This document shows, piece by piece, positions 20,634 to 45,170 of a stretch of 64,000 bases of DNA. Source of the stretch: an uncultured Armatimonadota bacterium (GTDB taxonomy: Bacteria; Armatimonadota; Fimbriimonadia; Fimbriimonadales; Fimbriimonadaceae). Position numbers and translations under genes: made by a program. The notes under the pieces were generated by a model, which was given only the letters and a program-made list of their open reading frames with translations, did no database searches and was not told the DNA's origin. The DNA lies in contig CAIUHP010000045.1 in NCBI GenBank assembly GCA_903899015.1, forward strand, positions 62,001 to 126,000. Reading direction: 5' to 3'. How positions within the stretch are numbered: the stretch's first letter is position 1; each line of letters opens with the position of its first letter.

Positions 20634-23600
20634 TTACTTCGTGATACTCAGACTAGCGGTTTTCGTAGTTGGACCGAAAGTCGCTGAGATCTTGGCACTT
20701 GTCGTTGCCGTGACCGTTGAAGTGGTTATCGAGAAGGTAGCGCTTGTTTTGCCTGCCAAGATCGTAACTGTCGAAGGACAGTTGGCTGAAGTGCTTCCGC
20801 TTGAGAGCGTGATGACAAGCCCACCGATCGGTGATGCGGTTCCAATAGTCACCGTGCCTGTCGCCGTTTTTCCGCCTTTCACGGAAGTTGGACTCACGGT
20901 GAGGGATTTGAGGACTGGAGGCGTGATCGTTAGGGTAGCGCTTTGAGTCGCGCCGTTCAAGCTCGCGGTTATGGATGCCGCAGTCTGAGACGCAACAGAC
21001 AACGTCTTGATTGCGAATGTCCCGTGGGTGCTTCCAGCGGCGACCGTCATCGATGCTGGTACAGTTGCCGCGCTTTGATTACTGGAGAGTTTGACGACCA
21101 TTCCACCCGTGGGTGCAGGGCCAGAAATCGTCACCGTTCCAGTAGAGCCGGTGAGTCCAACAACGATTGAAGGCGCAACGGAGACCGACAGGAGACTGGG
21201 AGGAGTAATCGTCAAAGTGCCCGCTTGAGATTGCGTGCCAACGGTTCCGGTGATATTCGCATTGGTTTGCGATGCCACCGCCGTGGTCTTGACCGTAAAG
21301 GTCCCAGATGTCTTACCAACTGCGATGACAACAGTAACCGGTGGAATGGCATTCTTGGAACTGCTGGCGAGTTTTACGGTGATGCCACCTTTCGGAGCCG
21401 GTGCGGTCAGCGTTGCGGTTCCAGTGGAAGCGACTCCACCGGCAACAGTTGACGGAGCCAATGTTATCGATTGAATCGTTGGAGCGTTGACTGAAAGAGA
21501 TGCCGTGAACACCGCACCGCTAAAGCTCGCGGTAATCGTTGCGCTCTTTTGAGTTGTAGTCGGAGACGTTGTCACCGTGAATGTCGCAGATGTTTGGCCG
21601 GTGGCGACGGTGATGGAGCTAGGTACATTTGCGACCGTTTGAGCGTTGCTCGAGAGGGAAACCGAGACCCCTCCCGCTACGGCGGGACCATTAAGCGTAA
21701 CCGTTCCAGTAGAAGTGTTACCGCCTGCGACAGAGGTTGGATTGAGGCTCAACCCAATCAAAGCCATGGGATTGACTGTGAGCGTGGCAGTTTGGGTCAC
21801 CGAACCGAGTGTCGCGGAAATCGTGGCAGTTGATGACGTCGAGACCGACGTTGTTGCTACCGTAAACGTAGCCGTTGTGGATCCTGCCGGAACTGTGACG
21901 GAGACTGGCACGCTTGTGTAAGCCGCATTTGTCGAGAGTCCTACGACAACTCCGCCATCGGGAGCAACACTACTCAGTGTCACCGTACCCGTCGAAGAAT
22001 TGCCGCCTACCACTGAAGTTGGGTTCACAGAAACGCTGCTTAGCGCTGCCGAGCTAATAACCAAGGATGCAGTTGCCTGCTTGCCGCTGGATTGAGCCGT
22101 AATAATCGCACCGGTTTGAACTGAAACCGCGAGGGTGTTCACGGTGAACGTGGTGGAAAGGGAGCCAGCAGGAACCGTGACTGATCCAGGAGGAACTGCA
22201 CTGCTCGAATTGGAGGTGACACTCACAACGATTCCGCCCGTTGGAGCCGCGCCATTCAGCGTGAGCGTTGCGGTCGTCGGTGAACCACCAAGAACAGTCG
22301 ACGGATTCAACGTCAAGCTGGTGGGGAAGGGCGGTGTCACCGTCAACGTGCCCGAAACTGAAGTTCCATTTGCAGTCGCAGTAATGGAGGCATTCGTAAC
22401 TGCCGCGACTGAGGTCGTTGTGACGGCAAAGGTCGTCGATGTTGCTCCACCAGGAATACTTGTGCTGGTTGGCACAACCGCGCACGAGTTTGCCGAGCCA
22501 AGGTTCACAACAAACCCTGCGGGTGGTGCGGGCCCACTGATGGTGACCATGCCTGACGAGGGAAGGCCCCCTAACACCGTGGATGGAGTGAAAGTCACCG
22601 ATACCGGCGAAGGAGGATTGATCGTCAGGGTGGATGTTAGCGTGATGGCCGATCCAAATGCTTTGATGGTTGCGGAAGTGGTGGATTGAACACCAACGGT
22701 ATTGACATTGAAATTAACCGAACTCGAACCAGCCGGAACCAAGATGCTGGATGCAACCGTTGCGTTTGAGTTGGTGCTCGAAGTTGCGACGAGATATCCA
22801 CCAGTTGGAGCAAAGCCGGTAAGGGTGACTGTCGCGATGGCAGTCGTGCCACCAACGACCGTGGATGGCGCGATGGTCAAGCTGAGCGGGACAGCAGCTT
22901 TGATGGTGCCTTGAGCCGAAGCGTTGGAGTTTCCAAAGGTTGCCGTGATCGTGAATGTGGTTGTGCCTGATACACCCGTCGTGTTGACTGTGAAGGTGGC
23001 GGTCGTCGCTCCGGCAGGAACGGTCACGCTGTCCGCTACCACTGCGTTGGTGCTATTGGACTTTAGCCCGATAGTAAGCCCACCAACCGGTGCTGGTCCA
23101 CTGAGAGTCAAGGTGCCTGTAATTGGAGCCCCTCCGATAACCGTCGTTGGGTTCAGGGTGACTCCCGAAACTCCGGGAGGCATCACGTTCAGGGTTGCTT
23201 TGTAAGTTGTTGAACCATATGTGGCGGTCAAGTTCGCAAGGGTTGCCGTTGAGACAGCAGTCGTCGCTATGTTGAAGTTTGCGCTTACAGATCCTTCAGG
23301 AACGGTAAAGGTTGCCGGAGGAGTGGCAACAGCGTTATCCGAGGATAAGGTGACCGTGAATCCGCCAGGAGGCGCTTCACCCGTTAATGTGATGGTTCCT
23401 GTTCCATTATTTCCACCCACAACCGATCCCGGATTGATCGTGAACTTGGAAAATACTGCAGGGTTGAGCGTGAGGGTTGTAGATGCGGAAATCGTGTGCA
23501 GTAAAGCGGAAACGGTCGCTGTCTCAGTTGCTGCTACCGAATACGTCGTGATATTGAAAGTTGCTGTCGTTGTGAGAGGTGGGAAAGTAATCGTTGCATC

Positions 23601-35821: not shown

Positions 35822-36397
35822 ATGACAACTCGTTCAACCGTAGGCGCACTCGCATCCGTAATGATCTTGGCAACCGCAACCGCCCATGCCGGCCATGCAC
35901 GGACACAAATGAATTTTGATCCGGTACCCGTTGGGAAGAAGGCTCCTGACTTTGCGGCATTCACGCCCGAAGGCAAAAAGGTCATGCTGAGCCAATTTAA
36001 GGGCAAGGTCGTTATCCTCGATTTTTGGGCTACTTGGTGTGGTCCATGCCAGATCTCAATGCCAGGACTCGAGAAAATCTATCAACAGGTTAATGATAAG
36101 AACGTTGTTGTTCTGAGCCTGAATACATGGGATAAAGAACCCGACTTCAAGGCTTGGGTTGCCAAGAATTCCGGTAGCACCTATCACTTTAATTTCGTTC
36201 GCGACCCAGCCGAAGGAGATCACGCCGGTATTCGCAAAGCGAGCATTGCCAAGAGGCTGTACAAAGTCGTCGGTATCCCAACGATGTACATCATTGACAA
36301 AAACGGAAATGTCGCCGGTTCGACCATTGGCGCAGGCAACGACGCAGAGATCGTCAAGATTCTAGGCAAAATCGGCGTATCAGCTGTTCTGCCGTAA
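35822..36397 (+). CDS. Secreted TlpA-family disulfide reductase
   Basis: 191 residues. Signal peptide at 1-23 (ending AHA), then the TlpA/ResA thioredoxin fold: PDFAAFTPEGKKVMLSQFKGK, redox motif WCGPC (Cys73, Cys76) and the cis-proline segment GIPTMYIID. It should act as a thiol reductant in the periplasm. Compared with the other TlpA-like protein in the window (WCPPC, Ala-rich tail) this one is canonical and has no tail. It has a clear ribosome site (AAGGGAG about 11 bases upstream) and thus a leadered transcript. Confidence 0.86.
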   Translation: MTTRSTVGALASVMILATATAHAGHARTQMNFDPVPVGKKAPDFAAFTPEGKKVMLSQFKGKVVILDFWATWCGPCQISMPGLEKIYQQVNDKNVVVLSLNTWDKEPDFKAWVAKNSGSTYHFNFVRDPAEGDHAGIRKASIAKRLYKVVGIPTMYIIDKNGNVAGSTIGAGNDAEIVKILGKIGVSAVLP

Positions 36398-36426
36398 GAT
36401 CGAACTCACAGAGTTTGGGGTGTGAA

Positions 36427-37089
36427 CTACCGGTGAATACTCACTCGGTTTGCCCACACCTCATTCTTCTCGTCAGTTGGTAGATCACTATCGTCGTTGA
36501 TCGTAAAAATGACGGACGCAATATTCTTTGTTCGGCTCTTTATCCCGAAAAAGGGGGCGCTACCGTCTTTAAGGCCCTTAACTGAAAAAGATCCAGATGC
36601 TTGCCCGATGAGATTCCCCTTAGAATCGTATGCCATTCCTACTACTGAAAAATGATTTCCACCGCGAGGTTGGAATTGAGAGCCAACTGCCGAAACGGGC
36701 GAATCAAATATCAATCGCAGCTGCGAATTAATGCCGTAGTAGGTTCGAATAATGAAGTCGTCCGGCAAGAAATCGCAATGACCCCCGTTAAACGATTCGG
36801 CAGTTGACTCGGTCCAAATTTGATATCCCTGGTATCCCGATGTATCTTCGAGGTTCGCACCGTCAAATTGAACGTAATCGCCTCCGTGAGTAGGGAACTG
36901 AGTGATCGCCTCGCCGTCGTACGTACTTAGATTGACAACCTGCCAATCAATGTAGTCGTTCTCCTTGATCGCCGCACGACTGGTTACCTTGGAAATGGGT
37001 GGAGTGATGGTGTCTCGAATATCGGTGCCACCACAACCCATTAACGCCAATGTCAAAAATGAAAGCGCGACAACTTGGAATTTGTACAT
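36427..37089 (-). CDS. Hypothetical lipoprotein
   Basis: 220 residues. The lipobox is LMGC with Cys19, so a lipid-anchored secreted protein is predicted. The body is a beta-rich domain (FDGANLEDTSG, RLIFDSPVSAVGSQFQPRGGNHF, ASVIFTINDDSDL) that resembles the beta-sandwich domains found near PEP-CTERM proteins, with phrases such as 'VSAVGSQF' and 'YDSKGNLIGQASG' also seen there, but no sorting signal is present. No function is assigned. A good ribosome site (AAGGGAG, 6 bases from the ATG) is present. Confidence 0.65.
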   Translation of the reverse strand: MYKFQVVALSFLTLALMGCGGTDIRDTITPPISKVTSRAAIKENDYIDWQVVNLSTYDGEAITQFPTHGGDYVQFDGANLEDTSGYQGYQIWTESTAESFNGGHCDFLPDDFIIRTYYGINSQLRLIFDSPVSAVGSQFQPRGGNHFSVVGMAYDSKGNLIGQASGSFSVKGLKDGSAPFFGIKSRTKNIASVIFTINDDSDLPTDEKNEVWANRVSIHR

Positions 37090-37278
37090 TTGAACTCCCT
37101 TGTTCTTGAATTCGACAGCTTTTAAGCACCTGATCGAATGCTCGTATATTTACCTAAATAATATAAAGGATACGATAGATCTTTTTGAACTGAAAATATT
37201 ATTTCTGCTCATTTTTTTGCGTCAGGTTTAGGGCACGAAAAAGTGACCAAGCTCGGCGATTGCTATCCCATCTGAGAA

Positions 37279-37428
37279 TTACTCAGAAGGGGCAAGATCG
37301 AGAATGGGTTCCAGCAGGGAAGCGTAATGCTTCCACCGATTGATAGAATTGCCGTGAGCCATATGGCGTACTTGCCAATGGCTCGGGGTGTTGACGGTCG
37401 AATTTGTTTCCTCAGGATCAAGGCATTT
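37279..37428 (-). pseudogene. Relic of a TPR-sulfotransferase gene (C-terminal 49 codons)
   Basis: Read on the minus strand this stretch gives a peptide whose C-terminal 48 residues align with the last 48 residues of the TPR-sulfotransferase at 40462-42150: shared segments include CLDP, NTPSHWQVR, INRW versus IHRW and LLEPI, and both end at the same place with a stop codon. The rest of the gene is missing; the relic begins directly at the TAG stop of the PQQ/Ig gene and happens to be in the same frame. It is too short to fold or function. Of the remainder of the interval 37090-37278, no gene is recognised; it is AT-rich near 37141-37215. Confidence 0.75.
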
Positions 37429-40269
37429 CTACGGGGTTACTGTGAGGGTTGCCGTTTTACTGATACCGATTGATGAGGCCGTGATGGTTACCGAAGACTG
37501 ACTTGTAACCTTTGAGTGAGTGACCTTAAAGGTGCCAGTTATCTTTCCGACAGGCACAACAACCGAAACTGGTACCTTGGCGGCTGAAGGATTCGAGCTG
37601 TTTAGTGTAATGCTTAATCCGCCTGTCGGAGCAATTCCAGTTAACAATACCGTTCCAGTAATTACCGTGCTGGCAATTCCTTTAACGGTTGTTGGCGAAA
37701 GGGTTACTGATGCCAAATACGGCTGTTGGATCGTAAGTTGGGTTTGCTGAGCCGAAGTTCCTAACTTACCGAGTATTCCGACCGTCTTGCCTGAACTTAC
37801 TGCTTTGGTGAGAACAGAGAATATTCCAGTCGTGGATCCAACAGGTACTGCTACCGAGGCAGCGACTGTCGCATAAGGTGCCGATGAACTCAATTTGACC
37901 AATACCGCGCCATTAAACGTGCTTGGGGCCGCATTTAAGGTCACAGTTCCAGTCGACTTATCGCCGCCGTTAACGGTGGTTGGAGAGAGAGTCAACAAGT
38001 TCAGAACGAATGGTGAAAGGGTGAGGGTCGTCGTCTTTGTCAATGTTCCTAGCCCAGCTGTTATAGTGTAAGTGACCAGCGAACTCACCATTTTGTGACT
38101 GACCGTAAACGTTGCGGAGGTAGTACCGCCAGAAATTTTTGCACTAATCGGAACTTTGACTAAGCTGGCGCTTGAGCTCTTTAGGGTGATTACGAGACCG
38201 GAAATGGGTGCGGGGCCACTCAAATAGACCGTTCCAACTATGTTCGTCGTTGATCCACCAACAACTCCACTTGCGGACAAGCTAACACCATCAAGCCCTG
38301 GGGGCTGAACGGCTAACTTTGCGTCGAACGAGTTCGAGCCAAAGGATGCGGTTACGGTGGAGGTGACAGTCGAACTCACCACCTTCGAATTAACTGTTAC
38401 GGTCGCGGACGTTGCTCCAGCTGGAACCATAACGGGTGAGGAAACGACCACGTTCGAGTTCGTCGAGGTTAGATTCACTGCAAGGCCCGAAGCCGGGGCT
38501 GGGCCGCTTATCGTAATCGTGCCACCTACCGGGTTTCCACCAACTGTCGCGTTACGCGACAGTGTAAAACCAGTTAGTTTAGGCGGCGTGATCGATAAAA
38601 CTGCTGATTGAGTTCCTCCGTTGAGTGTTGCTGAGATGGAGGCCGTTGTAGGTGCGGAAACTCCCACCGTGGTCACCGCAAATGTAGCTGATGTGGCTCC
38701 CGACGCAATTGTTACCGTGGCGGGAACAATTGCACTTGCTGTACTGGAGCTAAGATTGATCGTCACTCCTTCGGCAGGTGCCGCAGTTTTGATGGTGACG
38801 GTTCCAGTTGAACCATTGCCTCCGAGTACTGAATCCGGTGAAATTGAGAGGCTAATGAGTGCAATCGGTGGCGTAATCGTCAATGTTGCCGATTTCGAAC
38901 TGGTTCCCGACGTTGCCGTGATCACAGCGTCCACATTTGCTGCTACCTTAACTGTTGGTATTGCGAAAAATCCGGTAGTTGACCCTGCTGGAATCGTGAA
39001 CGATGAGGGAACGGTTGCTTCAACATGATCGCTCTGAATGGAAATTACCTGTCCTCCTGACGGAGCGGCATGAGAAAGTGTGACCAACCCTTGAGAAGGA
39101 CTTCCACCGACAACACTGGCGGGCCTTACGATAAAGTCAAGAATGGGAACATCGGTTATCGGTGTGCCTATGGCATAAAAAATGAAGTCACCTGAACCGA
39201 CATAGAGCGTGCCATCCCCACCAATTGTGGGAGGATTGTTGGCAAAGCCACCGGTTGTGAAGCTCCAAAGTTTCGTGCCGTCTGGCTTTACGGCATAGAT
39301 ATTGAAGTCGAAGGAACCGAAATATACCGTCCCGTCAGAGCCAATTACCGGAGAACCTTCAATCTTTTTGGTGGCAAGGAACTTCCATTTGAGAGTGCCG
39401 TCCGGATTGAGCGCGTAAAGGTTCTTGTCATCTGATCCAATGTATATCGTTCCATCAGGAGCAACTGCCGGAGATGTCCAAATCAGGTCGCCCGTCTGAT
39501 AGCTCCATTTTTTAGTTCCGTCGGGAGTAAAAGCGTAAAGGCTATGGTCATAACTTCCGAAATACACCGTGCCATCGGTACCAATAGCTGGGGCACCAAC
39601 GATGCCGACGTTTGCGTCCGTCGCGAAGGTCCATTTCTGAGTGCCATCTGGATTCACCGCATAAAACTGACCGTAGTCATTACCGAAATAAATGGTTCCA
39701 TCGGTGGCGACCGCTGGAGAAGAAGCAATTCCACTGTAGCTAGGGAACTTCCATGCAAGGATTCCGCTCGATTGAAATGCGTACAGGTAGCCGTCGTTGC
39801 TACCAACATAAACGATCCCATTAGGTCCGAACGCTGGACCGGTCCCCACTAAACTTCCCGTAGGGTAACTCCACTTCTTGGTGCCGTCCGGATTGACAGC
39901 ATAAAACTTGTAGTCGTCCGAGCCAACAAAGATCGTTCCATCAGAGCCAATTGCTGGTGCTCCATAAATTTGAGAACCAGTTGTAAAGCTCCATTTCTGC
40001 GTGCCATCCGAATTTAGAGCAATGAGATTTGCATCCGCCCCAAAATAGATCGTTCCATCAACCGCGATAACGGCTGGACCAAGTGTGTTGTATCTACCAG
40101 CCTGGAATGCCCATTTTTGGATACCATTGGATCCACCACCCATCCCAACTGCCGTGTTGAGGTTGTTCTGCCGAAACATCGGCCAGGGTGAACCAGGTTG
40201 TTGACCGAAGGTCAGAACTGTAAGCGCAAGCAACGCAGAGACGAGAGCGATCCGCAATTTATAAAACAT
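37429..40269 (-). CDS. Secreted PQQ-type propeller with six Ig-like repeats
   Basis: 946 residues from the chosen ATG (an in-frame ATG at 40320 would add 17). Signal peptide (YKLRIALVSALLALTVLTFG), then the W.MFRQNNLNTAVG.GGGSNG...W entry segment and an eight-bladed PQQ/BamB-like propeller (about 30-370; blades end in SDDKNLYAL-type motifs), followed by six Ig-like repeats of about 95 residues. It is a shorter sibling of the 1971-residue protein at 20634-26549 and looks like one of the units from which that protein was doubled. Binding or adhesion is more likely than catalysis. Its stop codon directly abuts a sulfotransferase relic. Confidence 0.82.
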   Translation of the reverse strand: MFYKLRIALVSALLALTVLTFGQQPGSPWPMFRQNNLNTAVGMGGGSNGIQKWAFQAGRYNTLGPAVIAVDGTIYFGADANLIALNSDGTQKWSFTTGSQIYGAPAIGSDGTIFVGSDDYKFYAVNPDGTKKWSYPTGSLVGTGPAFGPNGIVYVGSNDGYLYAFQSSGILAWKFPSYSGIASSPAVATDGTIYFGNDYGQFYAVNPDGTQKWTFATDANVGIVGAPAIGTDGTVYFGSYDHSLYAFTPDGTKKWSYQTGDLIWTSPAVAPDGTIYIGSDDKNLYALNPDGTLKWKFLATKKIEGSPVIGSDGTVYFGSFDFNIYAVKPDGTKLWSFTTGGFANNPPTIGGDGTLYVGSGDFIFYAIGTPITDVPILDFIVRPASVVGGSPSQGLVTLSHAAPSGGQVISIQSDHVEATVPSSFTIPAGSTTGFFAIPTVKVAANVDAVITATSGTSSKSATLTITPPIALISLSISPDSVLGGNGSTGTVTIKTAAPAEGVTINLSSSTASAIVPATVTIASGATSATFAVTTVGVSAPTTASISATLNGGTQSAVLSITPPKLTGFTLSRNATVGGNPVGGTITISGPAPASGLAVNLTSTNSNVVVSSPVMVPAGATSATVTVNSKVVSSTVTSTVTASFGSNSFDAKLAVQPPGLDGVSLSASGVVGGSTTNIVGTVYLSGPAPISGLVITLKSSSASLVKVPISAKISGGTTSATFTVSHKMVSSLVTYTITAGLGTLTKTTTLTLSPFVLNLLTLSPTTVNGGDKSTGTVTLNAAPSTFNGAVLVKLSSSAPYATVAASVAVPVGSTTGIFSVLTKAVSSGKTVGILGKLGTSAQQTQLTIQQPYLASVTLSPTTVKGIASTVITGTVLLTGIAPTGGLSITLNSSNPSAAKVPVSVVVPVGKITGTFKVTHSKVTSQSSVTITASSIGISKTATLTVTP
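37432..39146 (-). repeat. Six tandem ~285-bp repeats encoding Ig-like domains
   Basis: The units share the V.GG...TGTV...AP..G......S.....P..V.VPAG.T...F.V scheme with the arrays at 20637-24018 and 62153-63588. Confidence 0.82.
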
Positions 40270-40461
40270 TGAAAACCAAGATTTCTGAAAGAACAATAGC
40301 ACTGTTGGAAGGCGCTTCATAGGTGTATGTCCCTATTCGTAAGCGAACTCTAAAAATCGCCACGGAGCCGCGTTTCCTTCCAATCGTGATTCTTAAGGAA
40401 TTAGTCTGATTTGAGCTAGTTATGTTCGCAACTCATGCAATTGGAAAAATAGCCGGAGTTG

Positions 40462-42150
40462 CTACTTGACCGAACCTAGGTCGTTGATGGGCTCTAGGAG
40501 GCCCGGATAGTATTGCCACCGATGAATCGACGTTTTATAGACTGGTTGCCGAACTTGCCAATGGCTTGGAGTGTTGATTGTCCCTGTGGTTGCAACTGGA
40601 TCCAGGCATATTGGATCCCAATCTAAATCCACGAAGCGGATAAGGTCCTGAATGTTGGACTCTGGGTTGGAAACCAGATGCTCATAATCGACTTCCATTA
40701 TCAAATTTGGATCAATTACTGAACGCCAATGCGCCATCAGCCGAAGGTATTCACGGTAAGCAAATCCAATATTAGAGATATCGTGAGCGAAATCTGGAGC
40801 ATAGCGATATGGAGTTACAAAGGCGGAGAGGCAGGTATCGAGGGGATCTCTTCGGCAATGAATGATCTTAGCTTGCGGATAGGCTAGATGAATTAATCCG
40901 AGTGCCCAATAATTGAGTGGCATCTTATCGGTTATTCGGGAGGACGAAATAGAATTGTGGTCCAGTTCCGCGTCGTAGTCGAGGATCCAGTTTCGAATCG
41001 AAGACGGAACATCGACCTCTGAAAGTAGTTCAAGTAAGAACTTGGGCTGGTTCTCGGTCCAAAACCGAAGTTCACCGGCGGCACTGATTTCTGGGTGGCG
41101 AGAAAGAATTTGCTCAACAAGGGTCGTGCCAGAGCGGATCATTCCAACGATGAACACCGGACGCTTGCTCGCCGAGCCAGCCTCCCGATAATTGGAGAAG
41201 AGATCCTTCGTAAATAAGTTAATTAGGCGATCGACCTTTTTTGTTTCAAATTCACGATCAAATGGTTGCCGGTTTTTGCCCATGGAAGCAAGGGCAATTT
41301 GATTTGCCTTTTCAAAATGTTGTGCGGCGGCCGAGAACTCTCCAACGTCGTCAAAACACTTACCCAGGGCATAGTGCAATTGTCCGCGATCTGGCTCATT
41401 CGTCGTCGGAGAGTTGATCATCCTTTCCATTTGTTCAACAATTGGGTGATCTTCTTCGGACATTTGCTTTGAATACGCTAGGGCAAAGTAAGCGGCGGCT
41501 AAATTGGGTTGCAGCTTAATCGAGGTTTCAAAGCACAATACAGCGTCCGTGAACTGCCCCTTCATCTGATGGATACGTCCAAGCATGCGATGAGCAGATG
41601 GTTCCTTGGGGTTGAGAAAGAGGGCTGCTCGAGTGAGCGATTCCGCTTCGTCCACAATTCCAAGGTCAGCAAGAGCTTGAGCGAGGTTCAAACGGACTGA
41701 AACAGACTTTGGGTCCAGAGTTAAGGCATTGCGAAGGACTGTAACGGCTTCAGCTGGACGATTAGCAATCGCGAGCAACTGACCATATTTGGCATGTAGA
41801 ACGGGAACCGTTGGGTCCAAGGAAATCGCACTTGTGATTGCCTGGATCGCCTCCGTCCAACGACCTTCAGCCTGACGCGCTAAGGTTAGATTGAAAAACA
41901 GATTGGGTTGGTTCGGAGCGAACTTGATTGCCCGGGAAAATGATTCTGCCGCTTCCGTCGGACGGCCTTGAGCCAACACGGACTGACCAAGCAAGTTTAG
42001 GTTTCCAACATCGTCAGGTTTCAGACGGATTGCCTGACGACATAGCTTCTCGGCTTCTGAAAACTGGCCACTCGAAAAGGCACGAAGTGCCGCTTGATGT
42101 TGGACGTCAAAGGAGCCAAGCGAACTCAGCTCCTTGTCTTTACCGTGCAT
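40462..42150 (-). CDS. TPR protein with C-terminal sulfotransferase domain
   Basis: 562 residues. About seven tetratricopeptide repeats fill residues 15-265 (for example AEKLCRQAIRLKPDDVGNLNLLGQ and AVTVLRNALTLDPKSVSVRLNL). A sulfotransferase domain follows: the 5' phosphosulfate loop FIVGMIRSGTTLVEQIL at about 331, and the 3' phosphate motif CRRDPLDTCLS at about 431. It should transfer sulfate from PAPS, with the TPR part choosing the acceptor; tyrosylprotein-like sulfation or glycan sulfation are both possible. No signal peptide is seen. A leaderless promoter box lies before the ATG. The gene is one of two intact paralogues flanking a pseudopilin gene. Confidence 0.83.
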   Translation of the reverse strand: MHGKDKELSSLGSFDVQHQAALRAFSSGQFSEAEKLCRQAIRLKPDDVGNLNLLGQSVLAQGRPTEAAESFSRAIKFAPNQPNLFFNLTLARQAEGRWTEAIQAITSAISLDPTVPVLHAKYGQLLAIANRPAEAVTVLRNALTLDPKSVSVRLNLAQALADLGIVDEAESLTRAALFLNPKEPSAHRMLGRIHQMKGQFTDAVLCFETSIKLQPNLAAAYFALAYSKQMSEEDHPIVEQMERMINSPTTNEPDRGQLHYALGKCFDDVGEFSAAAQHFEKANQIALASMGKNRQPFDREFETKKVDRLINLFTKDLFSNYREAGSASKRPVFIVGMIRSGTTLVEQILSRHPEISAAGELRFWTENQPKFLLELLSEVDVPSSIRNWILDYDAELDHNSISSSRITDKMPLNYWALGLIHLAYPQAKIIHCRRDPLDTCLSAFVTPYRYAPDFAHDISNIGFAYREYLRLMAHWRSVIDPNLIMEVDYEHLVSNPESNIQDLIRFVDLDWDPICLDPVATTGTINTPSHWQVRQPVYKTSIHRWQYYPGLLEPINDLGSVK

Positions 42151-42156
42151 TGAAGT

Positions 42157-42162
42157 AGATTA
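42157..42162 (-). promoter_or_regulatory. Minus-10 box of a leaderless promoter
   Basis: On the minus strand TAATCT is followed by 6 bases and then the ATG at 42150. It suggests the TPR-sulfotransferase can be transcribed separately from the lipoprotein gene upstream. Confidence 0.45.
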
Positions 42163-42168
42163 CTTCCA

Positions 42169-42315
42169 TCAAGGCTTATGGTTTTTCTGTTTGATGAAAT
42201 TAGGCACACCGAGCTTGGGCGTCCCTTCTGGTGGCTTCACATCATGGCTAGCATCGTTGCCCGAGCATCCCACAAGGAATACGCAGACAACGAATGCTAG
42301 AACGGTCAGCTTCAC
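42169..42315 (-). CDS. 48-residue lipoprotein coupled to the pseudopilin gene
   Basis: A short frame starting with GTG that overlaps the TGA of the pseudopilin gene by 4 bases (GTGA). The first 16 residues are hydrophobic and end in the lipobox FLVGC, so after lipid attachment only about 30 residues remain: charged, Pro- and Gly-rich ([19 protein letters not shown]) and finishing in a basic tail. The frame is open further upstream but only within the pilin gene. A tiny lipoprotein translationally coupled to a pseudopilin suggests a role in its assembly or surface anchoring; no family is recognised. Confidence 0.6.
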
Positions 42316-43154
42316 GAGCCTTGGCAAGCCTGAATGGCCCAGTCGCAAGGCTTCGTGCTGTCCCACTTGTGGGTCTTCGCGTGTCCGTCTCCATAGACAG
42401 AATTGAAGTTACCCATGTGTCGGGCACGAACGTAGAAACCAGGAACATTGAGTCCGCTCACGGATTGGTTGGGCTTGCCATGGGTATAGCGCTGCCATCC
42501 ATAGTCCACATTTCGGTCGCTTCCGCTGAGGTCGGTCCAGTCTCCTTCCACAATCCAAATTGCAGTCGAAGGAACTTCGACTTCTGACTCGGAAACGGGA
42601 TCTCCGTTCCAATAAGCATAAGGATCGGTGCCGTGGGTGTAACCGGTCTTTCCGTTAGCGTTAAATGAAGGGTCAACTTGGCTAGCATAGGGCCATGTTT
42701 CCATGTTGTTCCAAGCCCAGCTTACGCGGAGCTCACCCTTTGGATTGGAAGTCGTGTTACCTGGATCAGCCCACTGTCCATTGATGTAGGCAGCGTAACC
42801 AAAGTTCGTATAGTCCTTGCTTGGGCAAACGAGCATTTCATAGCTCTTTATGTATGGCTGAATAATCTGATTCCAATAGAGCAGGCCGACACCGTCTCCA
42901 AACCATGGAGCTGACCAGGTTGGATCGTAGGAGCCATAGCTCGCTGGAACATACATGTTGTCGTTGTCGTTCGCATACATCATCGCGGACAGACCGGTTT
43001 GCTTGGCTTGCTGGGCGCACACGGTTTTCTTCGCTGCTTCCTTAGCTTGGGCAAACACAGGGAAAAGGATTGCGGCGAGGATTGCGATGATCGCAATAAC
43101 AACCAGCAACTCGATCAGGGTAAAGGCTTTCGTATTTTTATGCATGAGCTTCAT
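42312..43154 (-). CDS. Type II secretion/type IV pilus-like pseudopilin (DUF1559-like)
   Basis: 280 residues. The prepilin signal is clear: short basic leader, then [30 protein letters not shown], with the cut after Ala and Glu at position +5. The body carries conserved features of the large pseudopilins abundant in Planctomycetes and Armatimonadota, including the MYANDND segment, [15 protein letters not shown], and the C-terminal [20 protein letters not shown]. Such proteins are exported and N-methylated by a prepilin peptidase; their role in fibres or secretion is poorly known. No pilus machinery gene is in the window. A 48-residue lipoprotein gene follows with a GTGA overlap. Confidence 0.86.
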
Positions 43155-43310
43155 CGACAGCTTTAAGAGCGTGTTAAGGGAGTCGTGAGCAGTGTAATAC
43201 GCGTTCCTAAAATAGCTCTAAAAGGAAGAGATTGATAGCGTGACGACCACTATAGTGCTTAACCTGCAATCGTCCCTGCAGAAGATCCAGAACCGTGAGT
43301 GGAGAACGCT

Positions 43311-45170
43311 CTAATATGGATGCCTAACATTCTTGAGGGAGAGAAGATCGCCTAGATCATTTTCGTAAGGCTTCCACTTCTGAATCGAGGTTTTGTAGAT
43401 GGGCTGACGAGCTTGCCATTTGCTGGGAGTTCGTATCGAAGACTCATTTTCTTCGTGGTGGAGGCACGCATCGCTCCACTCAAGATCGCAGAACTCGAAA
43501 ATGTTTCGGGCAGTATCTTCTCGGTTCAAGATGAGGGACTCATAATCCATTTCGACCATCGATGATTTAGGCAAGATCGAACGCCAGTGATCCATTACCT
43601 TCATGTACTCTAAGTAATTGAAAACGATATTCGATGCGTTGTAGGCAAAGTTCGGGCCCTGCCCAAGATACGTTGTGTAAATCGAGAAGCACGTATCCAA
43701 CGGGTTCCTGCGGAGATGGATGATTTTTGCGTTGGGGAAGACTCTATGAATCAGTCCCAGATGCGAGTAGTTCAGAGGCATCTTGTCCGAGATCCGGCTC
43801 GATTTTCCGGCCACTGTCTCGATCGCTTGGACGTACCGTTTAGCAATATCTCGAACCTCATCCGCTGAAAGGTTTTTGTTTGGGAGCCTGCGGACCTGAT
43901 CAGCTTCGCGCATCCAAAAGACGGGTTCGCCAGCCGATGATACTTGGGGATGACTCGAAATGACTTGGTCGAGAAGGGTTGTTCCAGATCGAATCATCCC
44001 TACAATAAAGATTGGACAATTGCTTGACGAGTGACCATCGAGAGGAGTGTTGACGTGCTCCACCGAGTTTTCACTCATCAGGTGATCATTTAAGGCAGTC
44101 AGGGCGTCTCGGTCATAGGGGCGGCCTTCGTTATAGAGTTTGTAGGCTAACTCATTGGCGCGATGAAAATAGTGGATGGTCTTCGCGGCATCGCCTTGTC
44201 GCTCAAATCCACGTGCAAGAGCAAATCCGAGGTAAGTCCTACCCTTAAGGTCAAGATCCGATGAGTCAATCAGCCGCTCGGCTCTATCGAGCCAGCTTTG
44301 ACCGTCAATCTCAAATTGTTTTGCTTCGGCAAGCCCGTAATAGGCAACTCCTTGATGAGGCATTGCACGCAGTGAGGTCAGGAAGCAATCCACCGATTCA
44401 GCAAAACGGCCCTCTTGTTGAAGCCACAAGCCAAAGGAATTACCCGAATAGGGAAATGCGGTCATCGCGCTTTGATAAAGTGCCTCAGCTTCGTCCTTTT
44501 CGCCGACATAGGCTCTTGCCGCCGCAAGGGCAGTAATTAATTGGACTTCGGCGGGATGACGTTCAACTGCAACTTCGAGAATCTCTATGACCTCTTGTCG
44601 TGCATCCAGAATCTCTAGGATCCGAACCAACTCAAGATAGGACTCAATCCGATTGGGCTCCAATCGAATCGCTTCTTGGAATGCATCCTTCGCCTTGTAG
44701 ATTCTGTCGAGCCGAGTGAGTGCCAAACCAAGATTGAATTGATAAACGCCTGTTAAAGGGTCGCTGCGGGTTGCTTGGTGAAAGGCCCGAGCAGCTTGAT
44801 CCGCTTGATTGATCGTCAATCGACATAGGCCCAATTCGTTAAGCACGATTGGGTTTCGGGGGTTGATTTGGAGAGCCCGTTCACAAATGGCGGCGGCTTC
44901 TTCCGGGAGTCCCGTATTTTTCTTTGCGAGTGCTAGCCAATAGAGAGCTTCGTCCCGATGAGGAGAGGCGGCCACAACCGCTTGTAGGTGAGGCAAGGAC
45001 TCGGGCCATCTACCGGTTCGCCCCAATAACATTCCCAGAACAAAATGTCCTTCTGCGTGACTTGGGGAGACCGCAAGAAGCTTCCTTAGGTGGGCTTCTG
45101 CTTCAGATACTCGACCGGCTCGAAATGCGGTAGCGGCAATCCTGAAAAGTGCTTCATGGGAATCTTGCAT
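43311..45170 (-). CDS. TPR protein with C-terminal sulfotransferase domain, second paralogue
   Basis: 619 residues. Eight or nine TPRs (residues 5-340, e.g. AEAHLRKLLAVSPSHAEGHFVLG), then the sulfotransferase domain with FIVGMIRSGTTLLDQVIS at about 385 and LRRNPLDTCFSIYTTY at about 483. It resembles the gene at 40462-42150 through the whole length of the transferase domain, including SDKMPLNYSHLGLIH and the C-terminal TPSKWQARQPIYKTSI segment. It should use PAPS; acceptor unknown. It stands 156 bp upstream of the pseudopilin gene, in the same orientation. Confidence 0.83.
   Translation of the reverse strand: MQDSHEALFRIAATAFRAGRVSEAEAHLRKLLAVSPSHAEGHFVLGMLLGRTGRWPESLPHLQAVVAASPHRDEALYWLALAKKNTGLPEEAAAICERALQINPRNPIVLNELGLCRLTINQADQAARAFHQATRSDPLTGVYQFNLGLALTRLDRIYKAKDAFQEAIRLEPNRIESYLELVRILEILDARQEVIEILEVAVERHPAEVQLITALAAARAYVGEKDEAEALYQSAMTAFPYSGNSFGLWLQQEGRFAESVDCFLTSLRAMPHQGVAYYGLAEAKQFEIDGQSWLDRAERLIDSSDLDLKGRTYLGFALARGFERQGDAAKTIHYFHRANELAYKLYNEGRPYDRDALTALNDHLMSENSVEHVNTPLDGHSSSNCPIFIVGMIRSGTTLLDQVISSHPQVSSAGEPVFWMREADQVRRLPNKNLSADEVRDIAKRYVQAIETVAGKSSRISDKMPLNYSHLGLIHRVFPNAKIIHLRRNPLDTCFSIYTTYLGQGPNFAYNASNIVFNYLEYMKVMDHWRSILPKSSMVEMDYESLILNREDTARNIFEFCDLEWSDACLHHEENESSIRTPSKWQARQPIYKTSIQKWKPYENDLGDLLSLKNVRHPY

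Follow-up and report, generated by a model that had tools for sequence, protein, structure and literature searches.

Directly behind the stop codon of a beta-propeller/Ig-repeat gene lies a short open stretch that is very probably the C-terminal end of a lost third TPR-sulfotransferase, joined to the propeller gene by recombination. It is on the minus strand of the window (the whole 64,000-nucleotide stretch of Armatimonadota DNA that was analyzed), not far from two other TPR-sulfotransferase genes, A and B (Table 1). We call this remnant the stub and its putative parent gene A′. An earlier note on this DNA had stated that a third TPR-sulfotransferase once stood here, and our analysis supports that statement with good probability.

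Table 1. Features on either side of the joint
Feature	Positions in the window	Strand	Basis
Stub, probable last 49 codons and TAA of a lost TPR-sulfotransferase (A′)	37279..37428	-	Homology to A and B; differences by codon position; RQPxY motif lost
Stop codon (TAG) of the propeller/Ig gene	37429..37431	-	Propeller/Ig alignment to G005:C10 and G004:C21 reaches the stop
Complete PQQ-like beta-propeller/Ig-repeat gene	37429..40269	-	Collinear relatives; Beta-prop_ACSF4 and PQQ_2 (Pfam)
Spacer between the stop of A and the first base homologous to the G005 propeller upstream region	40313..40461	-	blastn
TPR-sulfotransferase A	40462..42150	-	Sulfotransfer_3 (9e-40) and TPR repeats; nearest relative found for the stub
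Prepilin-like gene between B and A	42312..43154	-	74-85% identity in G005, G018, G013, and G004
TPR-sulfotransferase B	43311..45170	-	Sulfotransfer_3 (9e-41); 59-67% identity in G005, G018, and G013

The stub follows a stop codon in the same frame

The stub consists of 49 sense codons (37428-37282, minus strand) that follow the propeller/Ig TAG in frame and without a gap, and its frame is closed by a TAA (37281-37279). There are no stops or frameshifts in its interior. Homology to the sulfotransferase family spans residues 2 to 45/46, beginning at the second codon behind the TAG. The only in-frame start candidate (ATG, GTG, or TTG) is an ATG at residue 23, which falls within a damaged motif described below. 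The earlier note had placed a sulfotransferase C-terminus right behind the propeller/Ig TAG and in its frame, and we confirm this arrangement and its coordinates on the minus strand. It had also counted 48 surviving codons; they are a remnant, as it said, but they number 49.

The same note called the two sequences fused, and this is not borne out. A gene fusion has a continuous frame across the joint, and here the TAG at 37431-37429 interrupts it. Two neighbors share a frame by chance in one case of three. What we found instead is a truncated coding sequence that lacks its upstream part, as in a gene remnant.

The stub matches the conserved tail of TPR-sulfotransferases

In BLASTP comparisons (two-sequence database, composition correction off), the stub was 61% identical to A over 44 amino acids (63.9 bits, E = 3e-18) and 43% identical to B (42.7 bits, E = 9e-11). 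Its raw scores were 154 against A and 99 against B, compared with best scores of 50 and 55, respectively, in 2000 shuffles. These E values and shuffle scores rule out a chance similarity to sulfotransferases. The earlier note had named a lack of significant similarity to sulfotransferase C-termini as what would refute it, and that similarity is present in the alignments to both A and B. Descent of the stub from TPR-sulfotransferases is seen in this homology to the C-terminal tail of the family.

The 49 amino acids alone had no match in Pfam (E ≤ 1) or NCBIfam (E ≤ 0.1). The Sulfotransfer_3 match in A and B stops about where the homology to the stub begins, so the stub corresponds to a family-specific tail behind that domain. 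We compared it with this tail in a set of 99 distinct C-termini (the stub and 98 others). It aligns with the conserved sequence TPSxWQVRQPxYxxSxxRWxxY of the 98 TPR proteins with Sulfotransfer_3 (PF13469) but differs from them in having no TPR part, no sulfotransferase domain, and no RQPxY. A 49-amino-acid frame behind a stop, with neither Sulfotransfer_3 nor N-terminal TPR repeats, is not a functional member of the family.

The stub is also alone in being short. Its own genome has 16 matches to it at E ≤ 10, and the other 15 lie in open frames of 457 to 685 amino acids. Among 61 genomes, its own included, there were 97 matches in 11 genomes at E ≤ 0.001, and the stub was the sole frame shorter than 455 amino acids. 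A search of the family (85 genomes, E ≤ 1e-6) gave 24 matches in 6 genomes, and again no other frame was short. The frame upstream of the tail was open in all 98 other members (read for up to 150 codons), whereas that of the stub is cut off by the stop codon immediately preceding it. We dropped in-frame stops in relatives' sulfotransferase matches as a sign of decay; in L038, L134, and L149, the matches with reported in-frame stops that could be read, the stop is the gene's own end.

The parent gene was probably a functional copy of A that diverged long ago

The RQPxY of the family tail reads RHMAH in the stub. Residue 22 is Q in 95 of the 98 others and H in the stub, residue 23 is P in 96 of 98 and M in the stub, and residue 24 is A. 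None of these three stub residues occurs at its site in any of the 98 other members. On the other hand, the stub retains T, S, and R at sites that are invariant in all 98. Residues 22 to 24 are therefore a mark of relaxed constraint, yet pN relative to A shows no increase. The decay is slight, since the interior has neither stops nor frameshifts, and the stub looks like a dead remnant.

Differences between the stub and A number 14, 13, and 32 at codon positions 1, 2, and 3 (binomial P = 0.0008 versus equal shares), with a saturated pS of 0.80 and a pN of 0.24. The corresponding values for two intact genes, A and the A of G005, are 0.76 and 0.31. With pN at 0.24 versus 0.31 for the intact pair, the stub carries no excess of protein changes. 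The saturated pS and low pN point to a parent that was probably functional, a copy of A that had long since diverged from it and was truncated later; most likely it still worked as a protein during that divergence, and constraint was lost afterwards. The saturated synonymous sites and the third-position excess make it unlikely that A's tail was duplicated recently.

In a FastTree tree of the 99 C-termini, which rests on 49 residues, the stub paired with A (local support 0.84) and then with the A of G005 (0.88). The next clade included three unrelated members. The A genes of G013, G018, and G004 were placed elsewhere, although gene order identifies them as A. Over the same 44 residues, identity was 61% between the stub and A, 50% between the stub and the A of G005, and 52% between the two A genes. 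This is modest evidence that the parent was a lineage-specific duplicate of A.

The propeller/Ig gene is complete up to its stop codon

The listed open reading frame of the propeller/Ig gene starts at 40320, and relatives point to 40269 as its start. Its closest relatives, in G005:C10 (57% identity over 962 amino acids) and G004:C21 (53% over 959), are putative orthologs. Both are collinear with it from start to stop and have the same C-terminal ...VTP and stop position, with TGA and TAA as stop codons versus TAG here. Among six proteins compared, the first 372 and the last 95 amino acids of the gene matched the same one best, which rules out a chimeric 3′ end. The middle Ig repeats matched several genes about equally, and one segment (seg2) was most similar to the window's own gene at 20634. 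The earlier note had allowed for the arrival of no more than the 3′ end of the propeller gene, and collinearity over the whole gene does not support this. Because the relatives end at the same place, a fusion or readthrough tail is also ruled out.

When folded, the 3′ flanks of the two relatives (80 nt each) formed a hairpin, with z scores of -2.1 (matched by 5 of 200 shuffles) and -8.6. The corresponding flank of the gene in the window (60 nt folded) had none (z = +1.1), and a pattern scan of the minus strand of 36300-40700 detected no terminator-like site. Together, the collinearity of the relatives to the stop, the homology from the second codon onwards, and the absence of the hairpin would place the joint within about 5 nt behind the propeller stop, between it and the second following codon, with the native 3′ flank gone. 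Nothing but this 3′ flank is foreign to the propeller gene.

On the other side of the gene, homology to L099 begins at about 40312 (blastn), and tblastn revealed no convincing piece of A, B, or the stub in 40267-40470.

Readable sister loci have no third sulfotransferase past A

G005:C54, G018:C53, and G013:C57 all share the order B, prepilin-like gene, A. In G004:C44, prepilin-A lies at the end of the contig, which stops 71 nt past A. The A of G005 is 54% identical to A, and the range for A in the conserved blocks is 46-54%. The earlier note had proposed that an intact third gene would be seen in the gene order of sister genomes. It was absent from all three readable loci of the four, in which the 11 to 14 kb past A contained no third sulfotransferase (G004:C44 was unreadable there). 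The lost copy may therefore have been lineage specific. Neither an intact A′ nor the gene order before the joint was present in any genome compared, those three loci included. The stretches read on either side of the propeller relatives, 19.5 kb in G005:C10 and 14 kb in G004:C21, contain no sulfotransferase.

Nothing in the other 19 genomes of the genus matched the gene that follows the stub (36427..37089, 220 amino acids) at E ≤ 1e-8, so the far side of the joint cannot be placed. An attempt to place it through the thioredoxin-like gene was abandoned; the three best foreign matches of that gene are on contigs that have no listed sulfotransferase match.

Origin of the joint

Gene remnants left by illegitimate recombination are a general class in bacteria. 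The stub resembles them in being truncated, in lying near an intact paralog, and in lacking a start of its own. It differs only in that its joint is unusually near a neighbor's stop and in that neighbor's frame.

The homology, the truncation, the whole propeller gene, the missing 3′ hairpin, and the lost near-invariant residues were observed directly. From these we infer a tandem origin of A′, its former length, an order of events, and a deletion rather than an insertion. A′ would have been a second copy of A, located downstream of it in this lineage and long functional. A complete propeller/Ig gene would then have come between A and A′. Illegitimate recombination, most simply a deletion, would have removed roughly the first 510 codons of A′ and, with them, the native 3′ flank of the propeller gene, leaving the propeller stop abutting the last 49 codons. 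The stub would now be untranslated debris in the propeller 3′ flank, with conserved residues starting to go. Our confidence that a propeller gene stood between A and A′ and that a deletion made the joint is evenly balanced.

The earlier note had the propeller gene arriving by recombination into the sulfotransferase gene, either inserted into A′ or replacing its front in one event. This is half shown: there is a joint near the stop, which may be an insertion or a deletion. The neighborhoods of the propeller relatives differ between G005 and G004, so this gene does change place, and the joint is tight. However, the front of A′ would have had to go simultaneously, and tblastn detected no remnant of it on the far side of the propeller gene. 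Nor do repeats mark the ends of an insertion. The only inverted repeat in 36300-37500 is inside the downstream gene, and there is none in 40200-40700. In 36300-42200 we found 14 direct repeat families (three propeller repeats, one stub-A homology, and ten two-copy matches of 14 to 27 nt) and 7 inverted pairs, none of which brackets the ends of the propeller gene. An insertion is possible but the less likely course.

That a short 3′ segment alone was copied here, with a whole third gene never present, is improbable. The homology is indeed limited to the last 49 codons, and no further piece of A′ was detected in the flanks. However, the saturated synonymous sites and third-position excess point to divergence from A under protein constraint, which a recent dead piece of A would not show, although a lost diverged paralog elsewhere could have been the source.

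There is very little to recommend an assembly artefact that joined unrelated ends. This is one draft assembly of 119 contigs, but the joint is inside a 176-kb contig, and the stub's closest DNA match within the same genome reaches 75% over 63 nt, which means that it did not come from misjoining part of an assembled gene. We think it equally doubtful that the 3′ ends of TPR-sulfotransferases are recurrent recombination joints that shuffle propeller/Ig genes in these Armatimonadota genomes, in which case stubs like this one would mark a gene-shuffling route; no other orphan tail occurs among the 97 matches in 61 genomes. Least likely of all is that the stub is used, as a 49-amino-acid readthrough tail of the propeller/Ig protein or as a small gene. 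Its frame is open and common to the upstream gene, but the relatives have no such tail after the shared ...VTP, near-invariant residues are lost, and the sole start codon is inside the damaged motif.

This case is a record of one gene loss and rearrangement in a genus rich in TPR-sulfotransferases, and it illustrates how to distinguish a stub from a fusion. It alters no general view, and the prepilin neighbors described below are likely worth more. Full-text literature searches retrieved no work uniting sulfotransferase, tetratricopeptide, and Armatimonadetes or uniting sulfotransferase, prepilin, and tetratricopeptide. Armatimonadota with sulfotransferase retrieved a single study, on sea cucumbers according to its title, and pseudogene with illegitimate recombination retrieved only work whose title concerns banana.

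TPR-sulfotransferases adjoin prepilin-like genes

The genome that contains the window has at least 15 matches to A at E ≤ 1e-60, A included, among the 22 of 68 candidates that were scored. At least 9 of the 15 have a prepilin-like gene within 2 kb (at least 8 within 1.5 kb and at least 10 within 3 kb), counting the 42 of 67 prepilin matches that were among the matches listed. In 5000 random placements, which used all 67, the mean was 1.1 and the maximum 7 at 2 kb, and the mean was 1.4 and the maximum 9 at 3 kb. This null model is rough, and A and B have a prepilin gene in common, but TPR-sulfotransferases adjoin prepilin-like genes more often than chance. Of 20 whole-gene sulfotransferase loci, 14 had a prepilin motif, as did 8 of 41 shorter C-terminal loci; several of the sulfotransferase loci are orthologous or overlapping and so not independent. 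By comparison, the motif was found in 0 of 30 loci of the propeller gene and in 1 of 13 loci of the thioredoxin-like and downstream genes.

Two TPR-sulfotransferases surround a Tyr-rich prepilin-like gene in the window (40462-45170) and in L063, L064, L065, and L066. In the sister blocks, the prepilin-like gene is more conserved than A or B. Possibly these sulfotransferases modify pilin by sulfation, but this is a guess. Examples of sulfotransferase-prepilin neighbors in G000 are at C83:30835-41546, C89:33735, C48:73181, and C38:82262. Separately, at G000:C79:47113-51817, there is a TPR-sulfotransferase facing another propeller match, whose end is about 2 kb away.
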